Source: Rhyzopertha dominica (Eukaryota > Arthropoda > Insecta > Coleoptera > Bostrichidae). Taken from it: a stretch of 64,000 nucleotides of DNA. The first letter of the stretch is position 1, and the number at the start of each line of letters is the position of its first letter. Both the position numbers and the translations under genes were made by a program. This document shows positions 3,633 through 32,940 of the stretch, one piece after another. The notes below the pieces were generated by a model, which did no database searches, was not told the DNA's origin, and was given only the letters and a program-made list of their open reading frames with translations. Location: assembly GCA_025024175.1 (NCBI GenBank), contig QCXZ01000064.1:59293325-59357324 (forward strand). Reading direction: 5' to 3'.

Positions 3633-4932
3633 CGAAGCATGTTTTTAAGTAAGTACCGCTTTGCGATTCCGCCGCCGCAGCGCTACGGTCGGTGTTCCGC
3701 GCATGCGCGCTGGTTACCTACATCTCTTGTCTACGCACTGACGCCATTACAGTTTGATTCTTCATTGTATACGTTGTTTACTGAGTGTTTAAGATGCCTC
3801 CGACAATCGTGAGTCCCGCCGATTGTGAAGTACGGGCTGTTATACGATTTCTTAGTGTTAAAGGCGTAAAACCGATCGATATTCATCGTGAGATCTGTGA
3901 AGTTTACGGACAAAACATTATAAGTGATGGAATGGTAAGGAAATGGGTGAGAGCATTTAAAGATGGCCGCACAAATGTGCACGGAGTGGGCGTCTTTCGG
4001 TCGTTAATGAAACTTTGGTGCAGAAAGTGAACGAAAAGGTGAGAGAAAACAGACGCTTTACAATTTCATCATTGTGCGACTGCTTTCCTCAATATTCTCG
4101 TAGTGTTTTGTATCGCATTGTGACCGAGAACTTGAATTACCGGAAATTGTGTTCACGTTGGGTTCCGAAAATGTTGACGGATTTGCACAAAACCCAACGT
4201 TTAGGCAGTGCATTGACTTTCCTTGAGCGGTACCACAATGAAGCTGAAGATTTTTTAGATCAAATTGTTACTGGTGACGAAACATGGGTGGCCTACGTCA
4301 CACCAGAATCGAAACAACAATCCATGGAATGGCGACATTCATCATCACCCAAAAAAGTGAAGTTTAAGCAAACAATTTCTACCAGGAAAATCATGTGCAC
4401 AGTTTTTTGGGACAGAAAAGGAGTATTGCTAGTGGAGTTTCTGCCTCGTAATCAGACAATTAATGCAGCGTCTTATTGTAAGACATTGAACAATCTGCGT
4501 CGTGCAATCCAGAACAAAAGACGTGGCAAGTTGAGTAAGGGTATCGTTTTGCTGCATGACAATGCCCGTCCACATGTGGCTAATCGGACCAAAGATCTCA
4601 TCAAATCTTTTAAATGGGAAACTCTAGATCATCCTCCATACAGCCCTGATCTGGCACCCAGCGACTACCATTTGTTCCTGTACTTGAAGAAACACCTGGG
4701 TGGTCAGCGTCTTCAAGACGATAATGAAGTCGAAACATTTGTGATACAGTGGTTAACAAGTCAGGCGGCAGAATTTTATGAGGAGGGTATTCAAAAACTG
4801 GTGACTCAATATTCACGGAAATTATGTAGAAAAGATTAAGGTACAGGCTTTCATGTAAGATAAAATTATTGCGATATCTTTGCACGTCTTTTTTTAATTC
4901 CAAAACGGTACTTACTTAAAAAACATGCCTCG
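3633..4932 (+). mobile_element. Mariner (DD34D) transposon, nearly full length
   Basis: The 1300-bp element is bounded by TA dinucleotides at 3631-3632 and 4933-4934. The inverted ends match: left CGAAGCATGTTTTTAAGTAA, and the right end on the minus strand CGAGGCATGTTTTTTAAGTA, both followed by GTACCG. This is the normal mariner layout of about 30-bp inverted repeats, TA target and one transposase gene. The ends look transposition-competent, but the gene inside is frameshifted, so this copy could move only with transposase from elsewhere. Confidence 0.93.
3794..4839 (+). pseudogene. Mariner transposase with one frameshift deletion
   Basis: DDD-type transposase that would cut and rejoin mariner DNA at TA sites. 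The ATG at 3794 starts MPPTIVSPADCEVRAV, the first helix-turn-helix, and the frame continues to NVH near 3980. There about 10 bases are missing compared with the family (which reads VH, a few charged residues, then SGRPSVVNE). The rest continues in another frame as SGRLSVVNETLVQKVNEK to the TAA at 4837. The second helix-turn-helix (FTISSLCDCFPQYSRSVLYR) and all three catalytic aspartates are intact: GDETWV, HDNARPH and SPDLAPSDYHLF, with 34 residues between the last two (DD34D). No other stop is seen, so the copy died recently or carries an assembly error. Confidence 0.92.
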
Positions 4933-6479: not shown

Positions 6480-7563
6480 AAAGTAATGAATCGACAATCT
6501 GCTCCTCTATGGTTTGCCAAAAATTCATAAAAATAATGTACCAATGAGACTTACAAGTTTTGTAGATTTGCCAATAAACCTTTATTAAAATCTATTGAAT
6601 GTTATTTCAAATAAGTTGTAAATAATGCCACACAATTTGCGTTTTGAAAAATAAAATAGAAAACTTCATTCCTGTCGACTAATACACCATTCAAGTTTGT
6701 ATGGATCAAAGTTATGTTGTGCTCAATGGTTCGTTTTACAAACAAGATGAAGAATTGCCAACGGTATCGCTTTTGTCTCTAATTTTGGAAAAAAAATATA
6801 TCATGATGGAGAGAAACTATTTTCATCTAAATAATCAATAAAGTTTTATTCTGGACGAGGTATGTAGATGACATTTTTTCTATTTGGACAGGCAGAGGCA
6901 AGCAATTGTTATCTGAACACGATAAACAACAAAATTTAATGCGCAATAGGGAGAGAAATTTTCTATAAATTTCTATAAAGAATAACGAAGTCATATTTGA
7001 AATTCAAGACTGAAAAATTCAACACCAAATTAAGAACTATTAAACAAGTAGCGATTATTAATGGTTACGACACAAAAATTATAGAAATATTACTCAAAAA
7101 ACACTGTGAACAAGACATACTGTATAGAGAGTCAACAATTCACTTCATTAAATGATATCAAAAACGTCAAAAATCGACTAAGCAAGTTCGGTATAAAAGA
7201 AATAGAAGTAAATAAAATTAATTTAGCAAGCCTCTTGATAAACAACAAACCCAAAATTAATAAATTGGGGAAAAAGTGGCGTTTACGAATTGCAATATGA
7301 ACAATGCGACATGATATATAGGTCAATAGGGTAGAGCTGTCAAAAAGAGAGATAAAGAACATAAACTGGAAAAAAGTTCAACGTGGTTTGATAGTCACTG
7401 TATAAGCAACAGTCATTGTTTAGATGAAAACAACGCAAGGGTTTTGCACTGCAAAAGGAAAAGTAAAAAATTAAATCTTTTGGAACATTTAGAAATAAAA
7501 CTTGTAACAAACCCGAAAAAAGAAATTCCGACGTTGGATTCTGCCCTTTCATTTGCTAAATTA
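6480..7563 (+). pseudogene. Penelope-like retroelement relic (RT plus GIY-YIG)
   Basis: A decayed Penelope-like element readable only by changing frame. In order: YGLPKIHKNNVPMR near 6510 (the conserved GLPKIHK motif of the reverse transcriptase), LNGSFYKQDEELPTVSL near 6720, and RYVDDIFSIW near 6855, which holds the catalytic YVDD. Next come GVYELQYEQCDMIYRSIGR near 7275, matching the start of the GIY-YIG endonuclease (normally CDKIYIGQTGR), and NLLEHLEIK near 7480 from its end, finishing at the stop at 7563. The order RT then GIY-YIG is diagnostic of Penelope-like elements. Many stops and frameshifts show that it is dead and old. No target duplication was found. Confidence 0.85.
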
Positions 7564-12431: not shown

Positions 12432-14567
12432 GGGCGCATTATAGTTGGGCCAAAAACTTTATCGCTCTTTAATCTGCCATTGAGTTGGGCCAGAAGGATG
12501 CGGACGGTGGATTATTAACCTCCCGCTGATGAATCCTTATCAGATCCTGCTACCTGATACTACTTAGAAAAGTAGGTAATTTAAACGCAAACATTTTGTA
12601 CCTGTGGACCCAATAGATCACGAAGCACAATTAAGATGGGTGGGACTTATTTGAAAAATGTAAAATATTATTGGACACTTGTCCATAAGTCCTAAATAAT
12701 TTGTTAAAGAGGGTGGTTACCTGCTGAAATGAGTTTATAAATTCTGAAACGCACGTCAAATTAAACAGTTTTACTAAAATTTCTAGCGCACATTCATACC
12801 GGCGAAATGGAAGTTGTATTCATGCAAAGTGAAAAAGGCAAAAAAACTGTTGGTGGTGAATAACTACAAGTTTTGCATCGCAAACGTGCTGAAAAACGGA
12901 ACTGTGCGTTGGAGGTGTACAAATAAAACATCGAAATGTCCCGCAAAAATCTACACGTCGGCNNGAAATGAGATCTTGGACTCCGAATTATCTCACAATC
13001 ACAAAGAAGACATAAACCTGCACAGGCAGATTGTCAACAACAGTGTGAAAGAAAATGTACACGAAAAACCTGCCAAATTAGTGCACACGGAACTTCGGTC
13101 TAACCCTGGCATAAGCAGTAACATAACGACTTACGATATGGAACTTGTAAGGCATAATATATGGATGTGCAGGAGGAAGTTAACTCCAAATCTACCCAAA
13201 ACGCAAAAAGACGTTTTCGAAGCAGTAAACACTTTGGCACCTATGAGAGATAAAGAAGAGTCATTTGTCTTGACAAATAATGCAGACCAAGGTATCATCA
13301 TTTTTGCTCCTTATAGCAATCTTTACTTTTTATGTTGTACTGAAATTGTGTATATGGACGGCACATTTGATTTTTGTCCGAAATTTTTTACACAACTCTT
13401 TACAATTCATGAATACAAGAATGGACATTACGTTCCATTGGTATTTTGTTTGCTTCCGGATAAAAAGCAATCCACATATAAAACATGTTTGAATATGTTG
13501 TGTCAGAAGTGCAGTGAAAGTGACTTACAATTTTATCCTAAAAGTGTCGTGATTGATTTTGAAACTGCAATCCACAATGCTATTATGGATACGTGGGAGG
13601 AAGCTAGAGTAAGTGGATGCCGATTCCATCTTTCACATGCATGGTATCGAAAAATTCACTCGCTTGGACTGTCACAAGATTATAAAAACCACACGGAAGT
13701 TGGCAAAATATTAAGATATTGTTTTAGACTTCAGTTTCTTGATTGTGATGACGTGGGTGACGCATTCGCATTCGATTTAATTCCAATCATGCCAAAACAT
13801 TCGAAATTTCAAGAGTTTTGCGGCTATTTAGTGGACAATTACATCAGCGAAAATGCCAAATTTACTCCAAATATTTGAGCAAGTTCATCTGCCTCCTCTT
13901 GCAGAACAACCAATGCGTCATTTCATTCAAGATTTAATAAAAGTTTTTATTCGCCTCATCCAAATATTTTTCAATTTGTTGATAGTTTGTTGAATTTTCA
14001 AAGTGAAGTTTATGTTAAAATAAACACATCCAACAAATTCCCAAAAGTTGTTAGGCATACTGTAAAATTAAAGCAAGATTATCTTGAAGTCAACATTAAT
14101 AACTACAAACAAAATCTCATAGACAGGCTGTAAAAAGTATTTCATTTAAATACGCGCCAAATATGTAAATATTTTTTATACCTTATTGTACATACATATA
14201 TGTTAATATTGTGCTATTACGTATAAATATAGGTTCGTATTTTTGTAAATTTGTAAATATTTTTATACTTTACTGTACATACATACAAGTTATTATTGTA
14301 ACGTATAAATATAAGTTTGTATTAAAACTTGAAAATTATTTATTTTATTCCTTTAAGCGTGTTTGCTAAGAAAAAAAAAACTGTAGCAATCACATTAATA
14401 AGTTACACACATCACATAAATTAAGGTCTTTCCTAATTTGCTAATAATGGTCCATCACCCGCTGTTCGGGCAAAGCAGATTCTTGGCCCAACTATATTGG
14501 GCGATTAGTTGACCCGCTCAGTCAGAGAAGGGTTGGATAGGTAGACTGGCCCAACTATACGACTCCG
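12432..14567 (+). mobile_element. MULE DNA transposon with 8-bp target duplications
   Basis: The 2136-bp element is flanked by ATTATTAA at 12424-12431 and 14568-14575, the length expected for Mutator-like elements. Each end carries the motif TATAGTTGGGCCA close to the terminus, in opposite orientations (12439-12451 and 14547-14559). Each end also has a second related copy further in (12483-12492 left, 14484-14496 right), which suggests subterminal transposase-binding sites. Outside this motif the two ends differ. The element encodes one FLYWCH/MULE transposase, now broken. It sits inside a LINE endonuclease gene. Confidence 0.88.
12807..14133 (+). pseudogene. FLYWCH-domain MULE transposase, nearly intact pseudogene
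   Basis: Transposase of the surrounding MULE. ATG at 12807 (MEVVFMQSEKGKK) leads into a run of seven A at 12840-12846. Past it the frame shifts by one base to LLVVNNYKFCIANVL, a FLYWCH-type zinc finger ending WRCTNKTSKCPAKIY...HNHK. NN occupies 12963-12964. The MULE catalytic region follows: VYMDGTFDFCPKFFTQLFTI (first Asp), YVPLVFCLLPDK, KSVVIDFETAIHNAI (second Asp) and CRFHLSHAWYRKI. At 13876 a TGA replaces the Trp codon of the conserved PNIW motif. The same frame then continues SFHSRFNKSFYSPHPNIF to TAA at 14131-14133. With one indel and one nonsense change, it is a young relic of about 440 residues. Confidence 0.88.
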
Positions 14568-14575
14568 ATTATTAA

Positions 14576-15660
14576 CGCTTACGCACCAACAGAAGAAAGC
14601 AAAACACGATACACTGTAAGAAAGGCAGCGGGAAAACAAACGATACATGAAAAAACAAATAATAATGGCAGAAAGTTANGTAGCGAAATTTATTTGTAGT
14701 AAGTTCCAAATTTACACAAAAAAATTTGGATAATACCAGGCAAAACCACGGGTAACCAAATTGATTATATGCTCATAAGTAATGGGACAAAGAATGATAC
14801 ATGACGTAAGATCGTACAGGGGTGCAAACATAGATACCGATCAATGCGAATGATCTTCAAAAGAATAGGCCAGCTAAATAGAATAAGTAAACTGGAATGG
14901 AGAGAGGAAATATTTATATGCCGATGAAGTAAGCAGACTGCGGGGGGGGGGGTCGAAAAATAGCAATAGAAATATTGAAGAAACATGGGGCACCATAAGG
15001 AAAAGATTTGTAATTGACGCAGAGAAAGTCGCAAGTGAGATAAACTCGGCCAAAACGAGCAGCGAAGTTGTAGTAGATCAGATTTTCAAGTGGTCGAAAA
15101 CTTCAAGTATCTTGGCACATTAGTTAATAATAGAATTAACAGAAAAAACGAAATCGAATACAGAATTGAACAAGGATATACGGCATATTTCAAATACAAA
15201 CGGCTTTTACAAAATAAAAAAATTAACCACAACGTAAAGATAATGATATATAAAGTAGCGGTTAGAACAGTAGTGACGGAAAGTCATATGGTGGGAAAAA
15301 ATGAGGGAATAATAGTAGCAGAGGGGGAATATCGAAAATTAATGAATCACGAAATACAAAACATAATTCGGGATAACATAATACAAACAATAAAGGCACA
15401 AAGACTACGCTTGTATGGACATATAAAAAGAACGAAGAAAAATGATGTAAGACGAACTACTGAATGGGACCAAGTGAAAATCGAGTAAAAGGAAGACCAC
15501 TGAGTAGATGGGAAGATCAAGTGATTGAAGATATTCGAGGTTTATGAATAAAGCAAATGGACCGGAAGGCGTGGAGAAAGATAATATGAGAGCCAAAATA
15601 TGGCAAAACAAAATATAGTCAACAGAGCCAGAAATACAAGGGCGGCTACAATTTCGCCTT
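14576..15660 (+). pseudogene. LINE relic, 3' part (endonuclease end and RT C-terminus)
   Basis: Continuation of the LINE begun at 12170. INAYAPTEESKTRYT opens at 14573, followed by NQIDYMLIS near 14757, the conserved Asp-Tyr of the endonuclease. The central reverse transcriptase is deleted. From 15090 a 132-codon frame, MVENFKYLGTLVNNR through GEYRKLMNHEI and AQRLRLYGHIKRTK, matches the C-terminal region after the RT catalytic core of RTE/BovB-like and related LINEs. Ends are near 15660 in an A-rich tail. A homopolymer of G at 14942-14952 and an N at 14680 may mark assembly trouble. Confidence 0.8.
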
Positions 15661-15870
15661 ACATATATAAAATGTTAACACACAAAAATTATAATAGAAA
15701 AAAGAACAAAAGTGTTGACATAAAAACAAAAAAAAAAGAATATCTGGGAGTTACAACACAACGCAATAAAAAATAGAAGAGGAATTAAATTAAAAAGTCA
15801 ACAGTAAAACGCGTAAATAAGCACGCAAGAAGACCTTTTATTATAGACCAATATTAACACTAACGAAATT

Positions 15871-16334
15871 AAAATGCATGTCTATGCTATGCTGTCTACA
15901 CCAACTACAATACCCGTTAAGGCAGCTAGGTGGCTTCGTCATCATGTCAGTGTAATGCTGACAGATGGCGTTGCCATCCTAAATTCTTACTTTCATCATA
16001 CCATTGCTTTGGTATATAAGTTCTATGCCGTGTTGTCTACACTAGACCTAAACTGCACTGATGAGCTGTAATGACAGCGAAATAGTACTATCTGCAGTTG
16101 GTTGAGGTGTAGACAGCACAGCATATACATGCATTTTAATGTATGTTGGTTCTTGTCGCTAGCAAAAAGTGCCGTGGGGGCCTGCTGTCAAATTGAAGTA
16201 TGCAGTCGCATGCCAATTTGTCAGGCTACAGGTCACTTCCTTTAGGAAGTAGTACCCGTTGAGGCAGCTAGGTGGCTTTGTCATCATGTCAGTGTAATGC
16301 TGACAGATGGCATTGCCATCCTAAATTCTTACTA
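15871..16334 (+). mobile_element. Short non-autonomous hammerhead-bearing retroelement (Penelope-like architecture)
   Basis: This 464-bp insertion is flanked by a perfect 12-bp duplication, ACTAACGAAATT (15859-15870 and 16335-16346). Inside are three parts. Bases 15871-15910 are an inverted copy of 16098-16137. Then comes an 81-bp segment (15911-15991) that recurs 342 bp downstream (16253-16333), about 95% identical by eye, so the insertion holds one full 342-bp unit plus the truncated start of a second. Finally, the unit contains a hammerhead ribozyme (16035-16114). Target duplications of 8-15 bp, partial tandem units, inverted 5' ends and hammerhead motifs are known for Penelope-like elements, but there is no reverse transcriptase here. 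The assignment to that group is inference. Confidence 0.8.
16035..16114 (+). ncRNA. Hammerhead self-cleaving ribozyme (type I)
   Basis: All core elements are present in order. CTGATGA lies at 16058-16064. Stem II is GCTGT/ACAGC (16065-16069 with 16074-16078) around a 4-nt AATG loop, then GAAA at 16079-16082. Stem III is three pairs, ATA/TAT, around GTAC. C at 16092 precedes the predicted cleavage site. Stem I then closes with AACTGCA (16051-16057) pairing TGCAGTT (16093-16099). Beyond an internal loop, GTCTACAC (16035-16042) pairs GTGTAGAC (16107-16114). Stem I is the open stem, making it type I, and the very short stem III is typical of retroelement hammerheads. Cleavage is predicted between 16092 and 16093; activity is untested. 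Confidence 0.9.
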
Positions 16335-16346
16335 ACTAACGAAATT

Positions 16347-26916: not shown

Positions 26917-27215
26917 CTAAACTTGACCGGTGTGAAAACAGCAGCCAAAACACAGCAGCCTAAATTTCCGAATGTAGCCGAACGTACCACAGAAGTAGTA
27001 AAAATATAGCGCTTTTCGGTCAGACCCATCATCAAAATTAAGGATAAATATATTAGGTATACAGATTCAGGCGAAATGCTGAATAACTAATACTAGCTAT
27101 AAATAAAGGCAAATAAACAAATATTATTTATATAACGGCCATTAGAGATTGTGCCACGCTAAAACCCCTCATAAAACAGCACTGACTATTTAAATATGGA
27201 TCCGTACATACAAAT

Positions 27216-30200
27216 CTAATTAAACTTTCAGAAAAAAAACAAGCACTATTAGAGAAACTAATTTCGCATAAAAAGAATTTTTGCAAAGCATGCCTTGGTT
27301 GCGAAAAAAATTAATCTTGCTTTTTGGAAAGGCACAGCGGTGAATAATAAACATGGACGCGCACATACGAATACAATAAAACTTTGAGAAAGGAACAAGC
27401 ACTGTTAAAGAAACTAACTGCGCATAAAAAGATTTTTTGCAAAGCACGCCTTGGTCGTGAAAAAAATTAATTTTGGTTTTTGGAAATAAACTGGGTTGAA
27501 TATTAAACATGGACGCGCACATACGAATCCAATGAAACTTTGAGAAAAGAACATCCACTATTAGAGAAACTAATTGCACATAAAAAGATTTTTTGCAAAG
27601 CATGCCTTGGTCTCGAAAAAAATTGATTTTGGTTTTTGGAGATATACAGGGTTGAATATTAAACATGGACGCGCACATACGAATCCAATGAAACTTTGAG
27701 AAAAGAACAACCACTATTAGAGAAACTAATTGCACATAAAGAGATTTTTTGCAAAGCATGCCTTGGTCTCGAAAAAAATTAATTTTGGTTTTTGGAGATA
27801 TAAAGGGTTGAATATTAAACATGGACGCGTACATACGAATCCAATGAAACTTTGAGAAAAGAACAACCACTATTAGAGAAACTAACTGCACATAAAAAGA
27901 TTTTTTGCAAAGCATGCCTTGGTCTCGAAAAAAATTGATTTTGGTTTTTGGAGATATACAGGGTTGAATATTAAACATGGACGCGCACATACGAATCCAA
28001 TGAAACTTTGAGAAAAGAACAACCACTATTAGAGAAACTAATTGCACATAAAAAGATTTTTTGCAAAGCATGCCTTGGTCTCGAAAAAAATTAATTTTGG
28101 TTTTGGGAGATATAAAGGGTTGAATATTAAACATGGACGCGCACATACGAATCCAATCAAACTTTGAGAAAAGAACAACCACTATTAGAGAAACTAATTG
28201 CACATAAAAAGATTTTTTGCAAAGCATGCCTTGGTCTCGAAAAAAATTAATTTTGGTTTTTGGAGATATACAGGGTTGAATATTAAACATGGACGCGCAC
28301 ATACGAATCCAATGAAACTTTGAGAAAAGAACAACCACTATTAGAGAAACTAATTGCACATAAAAAGATTTTTTGCAAAGCATGCCTTGGTCTCGAAAAA
28401 AATTAATTTTGGTTTTTGGAGATATAAAGGGTTGAATATTAAACATGGACGCGCACATACGAATCCAATGAAACTTTGAGAAAAGAACAACCACTATTAG
28501 AGAAACTAATTGCACATAAAAAGATTTTTTGCAAAGCATGCCTTGGTCTCGAAAAAAATTAATTTTGGTTTTTGGAGATATACAGGGTTGAATATTAAAC
28601 ATGGACGCACACATACGAATCCAATGAAACTTTGAGAAAAGAACAACCACTATTAGAGAAACTAATTGCACATAAAAAGATTTTTTGCAAAGCATGCCTT
28701 GGTCTCGAAAAAAATTAATTTTGGTTTTTGGAGATATAATGGGTTGAATATTAAACATGGACGCGCACATACGAATCCAATGAAACTTTGAGAAAAGAAC
28801 AACCACTATTAGAGAAACTAATTGCACATAAAAAGATTTTTTGCAAAGCATGCCTTGGTCTCGAAAAAAATTAATTTTGGTTTTTGGAGATATAAAGGGT
28901 TGAATATTAAACATGGACGCGCACATACGAATCCAATGAAACTTTGAGAAAAGAACAACCACTATTAGAGAAACTAAATGCACATAAAAAGATTTTTTGC
29001 AAAGCATGCATTGGTCTCGAAAAAAATTAATTTTGGTTTTTGGAGATATAAAGGGTTGAATATTAAACATGGACGCGCACAAACGAATCCAATGAAACTT
29101 TGAGAAAAGAACAACCACTATTAGAGAAACTAATTGCACATAAAAAGATTTTTTGCAAAGCATGCCTTGGTCTCGAAAAAAATTAATTTTGGTTTTTGGA
29201 GATATAAAGGGTTGAATATTAAACATGGACGCGCACATACGAATCCAATGAAACTTTGAGAAAAGAACAACCACTATCAGAGAAACTAATTGCACATAAA
29301 AAGATTTTTTGCAAAGCATGCCTTGGTCTCGAAAAAAATTAATTTTGGTTTTTGAAGATGTACAGGGTTGAATATTAAACATGGACGCGCACATACGAAT
29401 CCAATGAAACGTTGAGAAAAGAACAACCACTATTAGAGAAACTAATTGCACATAAAAAGATTTTTGCAAAGCATGCCTTGGTCTCGAAAAAAATTAATTT
29501 TGGTTTTTGGAGATATAAAGGGTTGAATACTAAACATGGACGCGCACATACGAATCCAATGAAACTTTGAGAAAAGAACAACCACTATTAGAGAAACTAA
29601 ATGCACATAAAAAGATTTTTTGCAAAGCATGCCTTGGTCTCGAAAAAAAACAATTTTGGTTTTTGGAGATATACAGGGTTGAATATTAAACATGGACGCG
29701 CACATACGAATACAATGAAACGTTGAGAAAAGAACAACCACTATTAGAGAAACTAATTGCACATAAAAAGATTTTTTGCAAAGCATGCCTTGGTCTCGAA
29801 AAAAATTAATTTTGGTTTTTGGAGATATAAAGGGTTGAATATTAAACATGGACGCGCACCTACGAATCCAATGAAACTTTAAGAAAAGAACGACCACTAT
29901 TAGAGAAACTAATTGCACATAGAAAGATTTTTTGCAAAGCATGCCTTGGTCTCGAAAAAAATTAATTTTGGTTTTTGGAGATATACAGGGTTGAATATTA
30001 AACATGGACGCGCACATACGAATCCAATGAAACTTTGAGAAAAGAACAACCACTATTAGAGAAACTAATTGCACATAAAAAGATTTTTTGCAAAGCATGC
30101 CTTGGTCTCAAAAAAAATTAATTTTGGTTTTTGGAGATATACAGGGTTGAATATTAAACATGGACGCGCACATACGAATCCAATGAAACTTTGAGAAAAG

Positions 30201-31504
30201 AACAACCACTATTAGAGAAACTAATTGCACATAAAGAGATTTTTTGCAAAGCATGCCTTGGTCTCGAAAAAAATTAATTTTGGTTTTTGGAGATATACAG
30301 GGTTGAATATTAAACATGGACGCGCACATACGAATCCAATGAAACTTTGAATAAAGAACAACCACTATTAGAGAAACTAATTGCACATAAAAAGATTTTT
30401 TGCAAAGCATGCCTTGGTCTCAAAAAAAATTAATTTTGGTTTTTGGAGATGTACAGGGTTGAATATTAAACATGGACGCGCACATACGAATCCAATGAAA
30501 CTTTAAGAAAAGAACGACCACTATTAGAGAAACTAATTGCACATAGAAAGATTTTTTGCAAAGCATGCCTTGGTCTCGAAAAAAATTAATTTTGGTTTTT
30601 GGAGATATAAAGGGTTGAATACTAAACATGGACGCGCACATACGAATCCAATGAAACTTTGAGAAAAGAACAACCACTATTAGAGAAACTAATTGCACAT
30701 AAAAAGATTTTTTGCAAAGCATGCCTTGGTCTCGAAAAAAAATAATTTTGGTTTTTGGAGATATACAGGGTTGAATATTAAACATGGACGCGCACATACG
30801 AATCCAATGAAACGTTGAGAAAAGAACAACCACTATTAGAGAAACTAATTGCACATAAAAAGATTTTTTGCAAAGCATGCCTTGGTCTCGAAAAAAATTA
30901 ATTTTGGTTTTTGGAGATATAAAGGGTTGAATATTAAACATGGACGCGCACCTACGAATCCAATGAAACTTTGAGAAAAGAACAACCACTATTAGAGAAA
31001 CTAATTGCACATAGAAAGATTTCTTGCAAAGCATGCCTTGGTCTCGAAAAAAATTAATTTTGGTTTTTGGAGATATACAGGGTTGAATATTAAACATGGA
31101 CGCGCTCATACGAATCCAATGAAACTTTGAGAAAAGAACAACCACTGTTAAAGAAAATAACCGCGCACAAAAAGATTTTTTGCAAAGCATGCCTTGGTCA
31201 CGAAAAAAATAATTTGGTTTTTGGAAATATACAGGGTTGAATATTAAACATGGACGCGCACATACGAATCCAATGAAACTTTGAGAAAAGAACAACCACT
31301 GTTAGAGAAACTAATTGCACATAAAAAGATTTTTTGCAAAGCATGCCTTGGTCTCGAAAAAAATTAATTTTGGTTTTTGGAAATATACTTGGTTGAATAT
31401 TAAACATGGACGCGCACATACGAATCCAATGAAATTTTGAGAAAAGAACAACCACTATTAGGGAAACTAATTGCACATAAAAAGATTTTTTGCAAAGCAT
31501 GCCT
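27216..31504. repeat. Left arm tandem array, 156-bp unit, about 27 copies
   Basis: Successive copies of the segment around CCTTGGTCTCGAAAAAAATT begin at 27605, 27761 and 27917, fixing the period at 156 bp. Inner copies are nearly identical; the one or two outermost copies differ at many positions. Because 156 is divisible by three and the unit has no stop in one minus frame, chance open frames of up to 749 codons result (29469-27220, 30098-29442 and others). Confidence 0.95.
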
Positions 31505-32644
31505 TAGTTTCTCTAATAGTGGTTGTTCTTTTCTCAAAGTTTCATTGGATTCGTATGTGCGCGTCCATGTTTAATATTCATCCCTGTATATTTCCAATAA
31601 CCAAAATTATTTTTTTTCGAGACCAAGGCACGCCTTGCAAAAAATCTTTTTATGTGCAATTAGTTTCTCTAATAGTGGTTGTTCTTTTCTCAAAGTTTCA
31701 TTGGATTCGTATGTGCGCGTCCATGTTTAATATTCAACCCTTTATATCTCCAAAAACCAAAATTAATTTTTTTCGAGACCAAGGCATGCTTTGCAAAAAA
31801 TCATTTTATGTGCAATTAGTTTCTCTAATAGTGGTTGTTCTTTTCTCAAAGTTTCATTGGATTCGTATGTGCGCGTCCATGTTTAATATTCAACCCTTTA
31901 TATCTCCAAAAACCAAAATTAATTTTTTTCGAGACCAAGGCATGCTTTGCAAAAAATCTTTTTATGTGCAATTAGTTTCTTTAATAGAGGTTGTTCTTTT
32001 CTCAAAGTTTCATTGGATTCGTATGTGCGCGTCCATGTTTAATATTCAACCCTTTATATCTCCAAAAACCAACATTAATTTTTTTCGAGATCAAGGCATG
32101 CTTTGCAAAAAATCTTTTTATGTGCAATTAGTTTCTCTAATAGTGGTTGTTCTTTTCTCAAAGTTTCATTGGATTCGTATGTGCGCGTTCATGTTTAATA
32201 TTCAACCCTGTATATCTCCAAAAACCAAAATTAATTTTTTTCGAGACCAAGGCATGCTTTGCAAAAAATCATTTTATGTGCAATTAGTTTCTCTAATAGT
32301 GGTTGTTCTTTTCTCAAAGTTTCATTGGATTCGTATGTGCGCGTCCATGTTTAATATTCAACCCAGTTTATTTCCAAAAACCAAAATTAATTTTTTTCGC
32401 GACCAAGGCGTGCTTTGCAAAAAATCTTTTTATGCGCAATTAGTTTCTTTAACAGTGCTTGTTCCTTTCTCAAAGTTTTATTGGATTCGTATGTGCGCGT
32501 CCATGTTTATTATTCACCGCTGTGCCTTTCCGAAAAGCAAGATTAATTTTTTTCGCAACCAAGGCATGCTTTGCAAAAATTCTTTTTATGCGAAATTAGT
32601 TGCTCTAATAGTGCTTGTTTTGTTTCTGAAAGTTTAATTAGATT
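31505..32644. repeat. Right arm tandem array, inverted, about 7 copies
   Basis: Same 156-bp unit in opposite orientation. The junction joins a left unit broken after GCATGCCTT to a right unit starting AGTTTCTCTAATAGTGG. Paired bases resume about 38 bases apart (CCACTATTAGGGAAACT at 31450-31466 with 31505-31521), so the apex is a short loop without spacer. The outermost right units carry the same variants as the outermost left ones (for example CACCGCTGTGCCTTTCC near 32515). Confidence 0.93.
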
Positions 32645-32940
32645 TGTATGTACGGATCAATATTTAAATAGTCAGTGCTGTTTTATGAGGGGTTTTATCG
32701 TGGCACAATCTCTAATGGCCGTTATATAAATAAAATTTGTTTATTTGGATTTATTTATAGCTAGTATTAGTTATTCAGCATTTCGCCTGAATCTGTATAC
32801 CTAATATATTTATTCTTAATTTTGATGATGGGTCTGACCGAAAAGCGCTCTATTCTTACTACTTCTGTGGTACGTTCGGCTACATTCGGAAATTTAGGCT
32901 GCTGTGTTTTGGCTGCTGTTTTCACACCGGTCTAAACTTG

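Follow-up and report, generated by a model that had tools for sequence, protein, structure and literature searches.

The insertion at positions 15871–16334 of the DNA analysed here, a stretch of 64,000 nucleotides from the beetle Rhyzopertha dominica that we refer to as the window, is assigned here to the animal non-LTR retrozymes. The class itself is known, with insects included among its hosts (PMC7229834), and the novelty implied by the original prediction for this insertion was too high in that respect. What appears to be new is the rule by which the element inserts: in our sample, copies with two head-to-head arms and a target duplication have one outer end at each of two internal sites of the unit, A and B. 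We put at about three in four the probability that the copy was mobilised in trans by the machinery of a putative Penelope-type helper, using these two sites as reserved positions on the retrozyme RNA.

The observations behind the original prediction were confirmed: insertion, target duplication, repeats and hammerhead are all present (Table 1). The insertion is flanked on both sides by an exact 12-bp target duplication. Inside it lie 1.2 direct units with a single complete type I hammerhead, together with an inverted piece of 35 nt; as anticipated it is protein-free, no stop-to-stop frame of at least 110 aa overlapping it. The direct repeat (15911–15991 and 16253–16333) is 81 nt long and 96% identical with a spacing of 342, and two of the three positions at which its copies differ are CpG-type transitions. 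The inverted repeat (15868–15902 and 16106–16140; 35 nt, 94%) has its first 3 nt inside the target duplication, the last three nucleotides of which on the left (ATT) also fit the unit at 16138–16140. Extension of the inverted arm as far as the ribozyme cut is unsupported by the alignment. Two earlier readings required revision. The 342-bp unit followed by 81 bp of a second is indeed there, but it is a short variant of a unit of ~352 bp, differing by a 9-nt and a 1-nt gap from that of a tandem array elsewhere in the genome (352 bp). Likewise, the inverted partial copy is real, but it represents the other arm of a bidirectional insertion, in which the left end lies at A and the right end at B.

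Table 1. Features of the retrozyme insertion and its flanks (u, position on the unit).
Feature	Positions	Strand	Basis
Left target-site duplication, ACTAACGAAATT	15859–15870		Exact 12-bp identity to 16335–16346; swapped-flank control, exact match of at least 12 nt in 0/400
A-arm, short inverted cDNA piece, unit copied from start site A down to 16106	15871–15902	-	35-nt inverted repeat, 94%; site A recurs in other insertions
Junction filler, 8 nt, between A-arm and B-arm	15903–15910		Outside unit alignments
B-arm, 1.2 units (342 + 81 nt), end at start site B (u81)	15911–16333	+	Direct repeat; unit comparison
Type I hammerhead ribozyme, extended stem I; predicted cut 16092/16093	16036–16114	+	Motif scan, pair table, Rfam HH9 28 bits at 16042–16112
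RNA start site A, window copy (u236–239)	16137–16140	+	A-arm outer end; exact base ambiguous, 3 nt of homology with target
Start site B end, window copy (u79–81), plus one extra A at 16334	16331–16334	+	Repeat comparison; end-site annotation
Right target-site duplication, ACTAACGAAATT	16335–16346		Exact identity to left duplication

The hammerhead core is complete, comprising CTGATGA (16058–16064), a 5-bp stem II (16065–16078), GAAA (16079–16082), a 3-bp stem III closed by a GTAC loop (16082–16091) and the C at 16092, after which the cut had been predicted. In stem I, an inner part of 7 bp is separated by an internal loop from a long outer helix. A motif descriptor requiring at least 5 bp of inner stem I matched exactly once in the window; among 300 shuffled windows there was one such match, and there were eight under a looser rule of at least 3 bp. 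In the Rfam scan no family reached its gathering score anywhere in the window. The covariance check proposed earlier gave a weak result: HH9 (RF02275) was the best match of the hammerhead (E 0.0081 for the whole window), but its 28 bits fall short of the gathering score of 52, and the hammerhead is not a member of that family by this measure. The catalytic fold lies 3.7 kcal/mol above the minimum fold, both alone and within the circular unit. The unit, with a GC content of 44%, is strongly folded as a circle (z −7.8 against 150 shuffles). Since it carries one hammerhead only, the window copy by itself presumably cannot release unit-length RNA. A Pol III scan found no strict A box or B box; a TATA-like GGTATATAAG precedes the ribozyme, and no cluster of inner ends was seen near the start that it predicts.

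The window also contains other repeats. A tandem array of a 156-bp repeat (27190–32651, 27.7 copies) flips its orientation at ~31504, with 7.4 copies inverted, and a MIR529-like Rfam score below gathering (31426–31548) probably reflects the palindrome created by this flip. Remnants were found of a mariner-type transposase (Transposase_1; 3961–4839) and of a MULE transposase with a FLYWCH finger (12787–13878), for which Aphis, Callosobruchus and Caenorhabditis are named among 48 listed relatives. The left flank of the insertion (15400–15640) resembles, by eye only, the end of a LINE frame; Pfam gave no match for the frame at 15039–15488 in the same flank.

We also searched the beetle's own genome (479 Mb). 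A hammerhead core pattern of 35 positions, one of them free, gave 1411 matches (748 + 663), and its reversed control none. The unit was matched at no fewer than 215 places (40 of 2220 candidates scored), including a tandem array of 4.96 units (L020); further copies, tandem copies and copies with target duplications of their own, all of which had been proposed as checks, were thus found. For annotation, 48 insertions at 47 loci were used: 23 distinct insertions from 30 genome-search loci, biased to the best and longest matches, 22 loci of contig 1, and two loci from the Penelope search described below (L062 and L067). The contig-1 loci represent the first 24 of the 79 clusters in 100 listed core matches, minus one array and L079, which is the same as L040; one further piece in L097, clipped by the locus edge, was excluded before counting. 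The windows defining the end sites (A, u228–252; B, u70–104) were set after the first 23 loci had been inspected. Beyond this genome, IMG/VR scans with ribozyme or unit words gave no match or only short ones of 16–33 nt. Five IMG/VR contigs (L008–L012) have the GCTG/CAGC stem II of the element in their hammerhead cores, two of them being identical in sequence there; their similarity to the element is confined to the surroundings of the core. One scan of GTDB contigs, a set from which records of this or near genomes were possibly excluded, found nothing.

Head-to-head insertions, with minus-strand units at the left and plus-strand units at the right, account for 29 of the 48, and a target duplication is present in 25 of these. 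All 25 of them have A at one outer end and B at the opposite one; the left end is A in 15 and B in 10. Fourteen come from the loci in which the sites were first read, ten from the later contig-1 sample, where taken alone the rule also holds without exception (10/10), and one from L067. If 25 A and 25 B ends were paired at random, the chance of obtaining mixed pairs only would be 2.7e-7. The last templated base could be placed exactly at u235–238 for 19 A ends and at u75–84 for 18 B ends, exact anchoring being impossible for 13 of the 50 outer ends; the two sites are 154 nt apart on the unit. The duplications, called with one mismatch allowed, measure 13 bp in eleven cases, 14 bp in six, 12 bp in three and 15 bp in two, with single cases of 11, 17 and 20 bp, and no two are alike. 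A duplication call of any kind, or one of at least 11 nt, was obtained for 25 of the 29 insertions, and an exact one of at least 12 nt for 21; with swapped flanks (n = 400) the corresponding numbers were 9, 5 and 0. The four insertions without a duplication have ends at B and B (L016), B and u105 (L033), B and u300 (L037), and u267 and B (L101). Among 100 listed core matches, all nine opposite-strand neighbours within 1.5 kb stand in the minus-then-plus order (judged by eye; one pair, at L085, spans two insertions). For most two-armed insertions, the sequences together suggest synthesis from both strands of the cut DNA, begun on each at a different fixed position of the RNA.

Among the 19 one-armed insertions, the 3' end is at A in 16 and at B in 3; a duplication of 8–15 bp was called in 7 and, by the same test, none in 12. 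Five of them have inner ends at u286–293, and when every arm is counted, the stretch u284–293 holds 10 of 77 inner (5') ends (p 0.012 by simulation). This cluster might mark the 5' end of the RNA, a transcript start or a processing site; a circular template gives no explanation of it. As for the arms of the 25 A/B pairs, 9 of the A-arms and 14 of the B-arms are longer than one unit, and 22 of the 25 A-arms extend past the ribozyme cut site. A linear ribozyme-cut monomer is ruled out as template for those 22 arms, and the arm structure is therefore consistent with either a circular or an uncut multimeric RNA as the usual template.

Rare variants tie the two arms of an insertion to each other. 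Of 10422 positions compared between opposite arms, 35 have such a variant in common, against 3 of 32304 in random pairs from different insertions (n = 400; pieces of one arm were compared repeatedly, so that positions are non-independent). Such variants occur in 13 of the 29 head-to-head insertions and are lacking in 16; as some of the latter are rich in variants confined to a single arm (21 in L014, 20 in L016, 18 in L037), mutation after insertion, too little overlap or a mixture of templates may explain them. Median divergence between unit copies is 1.2% within insertions and 2.4% between them, which fits one template per insertion and does not separate a circle from a multimer.

The junctions bear on how synthesis may begin and end. 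Homology between target and RNA next to the start averages 2.4 nt over 19 A ends and 1.5 nt over 18 B ends, compared with 0.8 and 0.5 nt, respectively, when flanks of other insertions are used; in the window copy the target terminates in ATT, a match to the RNA at site A. At the 29 inner junctions the arms overlap by at least 1 nt in 23 (22 nt once, otherwise 1–9 nt), are flush in one and are separated by a gap in five. On the reading that we prefer, an endonuclease would nick both target strands, mostly 12–15 bp apart, and the two target 3' ends would anneal over a few bases, one to site A and the other to site B of the retrozyme RNA, both sites probably lying on one RNA held by a protein dimer. 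Reverse transcription would then proceed from both sites, often beyond one unit, the two cDNAs would be joined head to head, usually with an overlap of a few bases, and gap filling would generate the target duplication. The ribozyme would presumably be active, and the template may be either circular or multimeric.

A GIY-YIG search of the same genome found at least 144 places over the cut-off (150 of 2080 candidates scored), many of them at 33.5 bits. One Penelope-like family recovered in this way, family K, has a frame of 864 aa with at least one unread base; relatives of its protein, including one from Drosophila virilis, carry PF00078 (RVT_1), and Pfam gave no significant match for two family K frames. 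Its head-to-head insertions with a duplication follow the same geometry, all 11 having one end with a tail of ~38 nt and one end without, and duplications of 10–18 bp, three of them with one mismatch. These come from 30 annotated K rows, of which 13 are two-armed with a duplication (11 distinct, L070, L071 and L076 being the same), 9 are clipped at the locus edge and 8 are one-armed or fragments without duplication. The Penelope partner that had been expected to share the unit was therefore found in its geometry but not in its sequence: in the one K locus compared, only 11-nt words are common to K and the retrozyme unit, for which reason K need not be the actual helper. No hammerhead was seen inside family K, the loose core matches in L075, L076 and L078 being located outside the K element.

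A second retrozyme family in the genome, with a 273-bp unit and 227 core matches, behaves similarly. All 4 of its insertions that carry a duplication end at two different sites, and 3 of them at the same two (L102–L104; duplications of 12–15 bp, two with one mismatch; aligned ends v41 and v182, numbered on the second unit). The fourth, L077 (copy at 6610–7206), has a 13-bp duplication with one mismatch, and its ends align at v128 and v60; L105 has no duplication. L102–L105 were picked as close opposite-strand pairs, so that their head-to-head order is a product of selection, and L077 was a chance find; among 100 listed matches of this family, opposite-strand neighbours within 1.5 kb are in the minus-then-plus order in 13 of 13 cases (by eye). 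The best local alignment between the units of the two families falls at site B in each (u54–82, v160–187), its score of 27 being inside the range of 300 shuffles (maximum 28), and the families are otherwise unrelated. At site B both have a short hairpin followed by a TCCTATTCTTACTT-like sequence, which could be a recognition signal, the argument being its position and not its score. We advance only tentatively, and at somewhat less than even odds, the wider proposal that Penelope-type retrotransposition generally follows a two-site, two-strand rule, in which a dimeric reverse transcriptase would engage two reserved sites of one RNA, one for each target strand, and which hammerhead elements would exploit with a site pair of their own.

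The insertion geometry common to the unit and family K could also mean that the unit is no retrozyme and instead a deletion derivative (pseudo-LTR) of a Penelope element, some of which carry hammerheads (PMC11167929). The original prediction had offered Penelope descent and a retrozyme-like agent as alternatives; of these the second fits. Only 11-nt words are common to the unit and family K, which speaks against the first in the one K locus compared, other Penelope families having been sampled in fetched loci only. The long stem I also differs from the Penelope hammerheads, described as minimal variants (PMC7229834), and we consider such a derivation unlikely. Alternatively, a LINE-type element might mobilise the retrozyme, the inversions then being ordinary twin priming. 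Target duplications of similar length and inverted 5' pieces also occur with LINEs, in favour of this explanation. The 15-bp duplications of hammerhead repeats in Nematostella have moreover been compared with those of LINEs (PMC4918200). Against it stand the outer ends at two internal RNA sites, one each, and the recurrence of this geometry in a resident Penelope-like family (11/11), which make it quite improbable. Snap-back or self-priming of a single cDNA, proposed to account for the head-to-head order of Adineta Penelope elements (PMC3846280), would also fit the rare variants common to both arms; copying back one cDNA should not yield an A end and a B end each time (25/25), and we disfavour it as very unlikely. 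Amplification of a satellite by recombination, without retrotransposition, finds some support in the tandem arrays and is contradicted by the dispersed copies with their recurring ends and 25 different target duplications.

Mobilisation by Penelope-type machinery, the reading retained here, agrees with the suggestion that Penelope elements are a strong candidate helper of animal retrozymes (PMC7229834). Against this reading count the near absence of sequence common to family K and the unit, the absence of a hammerhead or a significant Pfam match in K, the differences from the PAc protein set out below, the insertions without a duplication (one of them B/B), the arms that share no rare variant, the low Rfam score and the cluster of inner ends at u284–293. 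That a retrozyme and a Penelope-like family of one genome insert in the same two-site fashion is structural evidence for such a helper, the rule yields an exact prediction for a reconstituted reaction, and the arm structure constrains the RNA intermediate of retrozymes. Our literature search, with most subscription papers beyond its reach, did not find head-to-head retrozymes or the rule of one end at each site stated, and the words inverted, head-to-head, opposite orientation and antisense are absent from the main text of PMC7229834.

Animal non-LTR retrozymes are described as having a type I hammerhead, a tandem unit of 170–400 nt with a GC content below 45–50% and a strong fold, no protein, and target duplications of more than 4 bp, insects being named as hosts (PMC7229834; Cervera and de la Pena 2020). 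The present element resembles them in all these features: its type I core is complete, if below the Rfam gathering score; its non-coding unit of 342/352 bp lies within ~150–450 bp, has a GC content under 50% and forms arrays; its fold is stable; and its copies are dispersed with duplications of more than 4 bp (in 25/29 head-to-head and 7/19 one-armed insertions). It differs in its head-to-head insertions (29/48) with two fixed RNA starts. Plant LTR retrozymes are likewise hammerhead-processed non-autonomous retroelements with a proposed circular RNA intermediate, but have a type III hammerhead, LTRs, a tRNA primer site and 4-bp duplications (PMC4918200, PMC7761336, PMC7229834).

The window element lacks the reverse transcriptase and GIY-YIG frame of Penelope-like elements, and its resemblance to them is one of integration mechanism, not of membership: head-to-head arms, target duplications, and extension of both target strands from two internal starts (PMC11167929, PMC3846280). 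In Penelope-like elements a tail is optional on one inverted pseudo-LTR, as at one end of the Adineta insertions, and a strict rule of one end per site is not stated in the available text of either source. A parallel is the PAc Penelope protein, which cleaves both target strands and extends them from two adjacent internal sites of its RNA, hammerhead activity being dispensable in vitro (PMC11167929). Whereas the PAc start sites are adjacent and initiation there is reported not to be homologous to the target, the sites used by the retrozyme, which encodes no protein, are 154 nt apart and show short homology to it.
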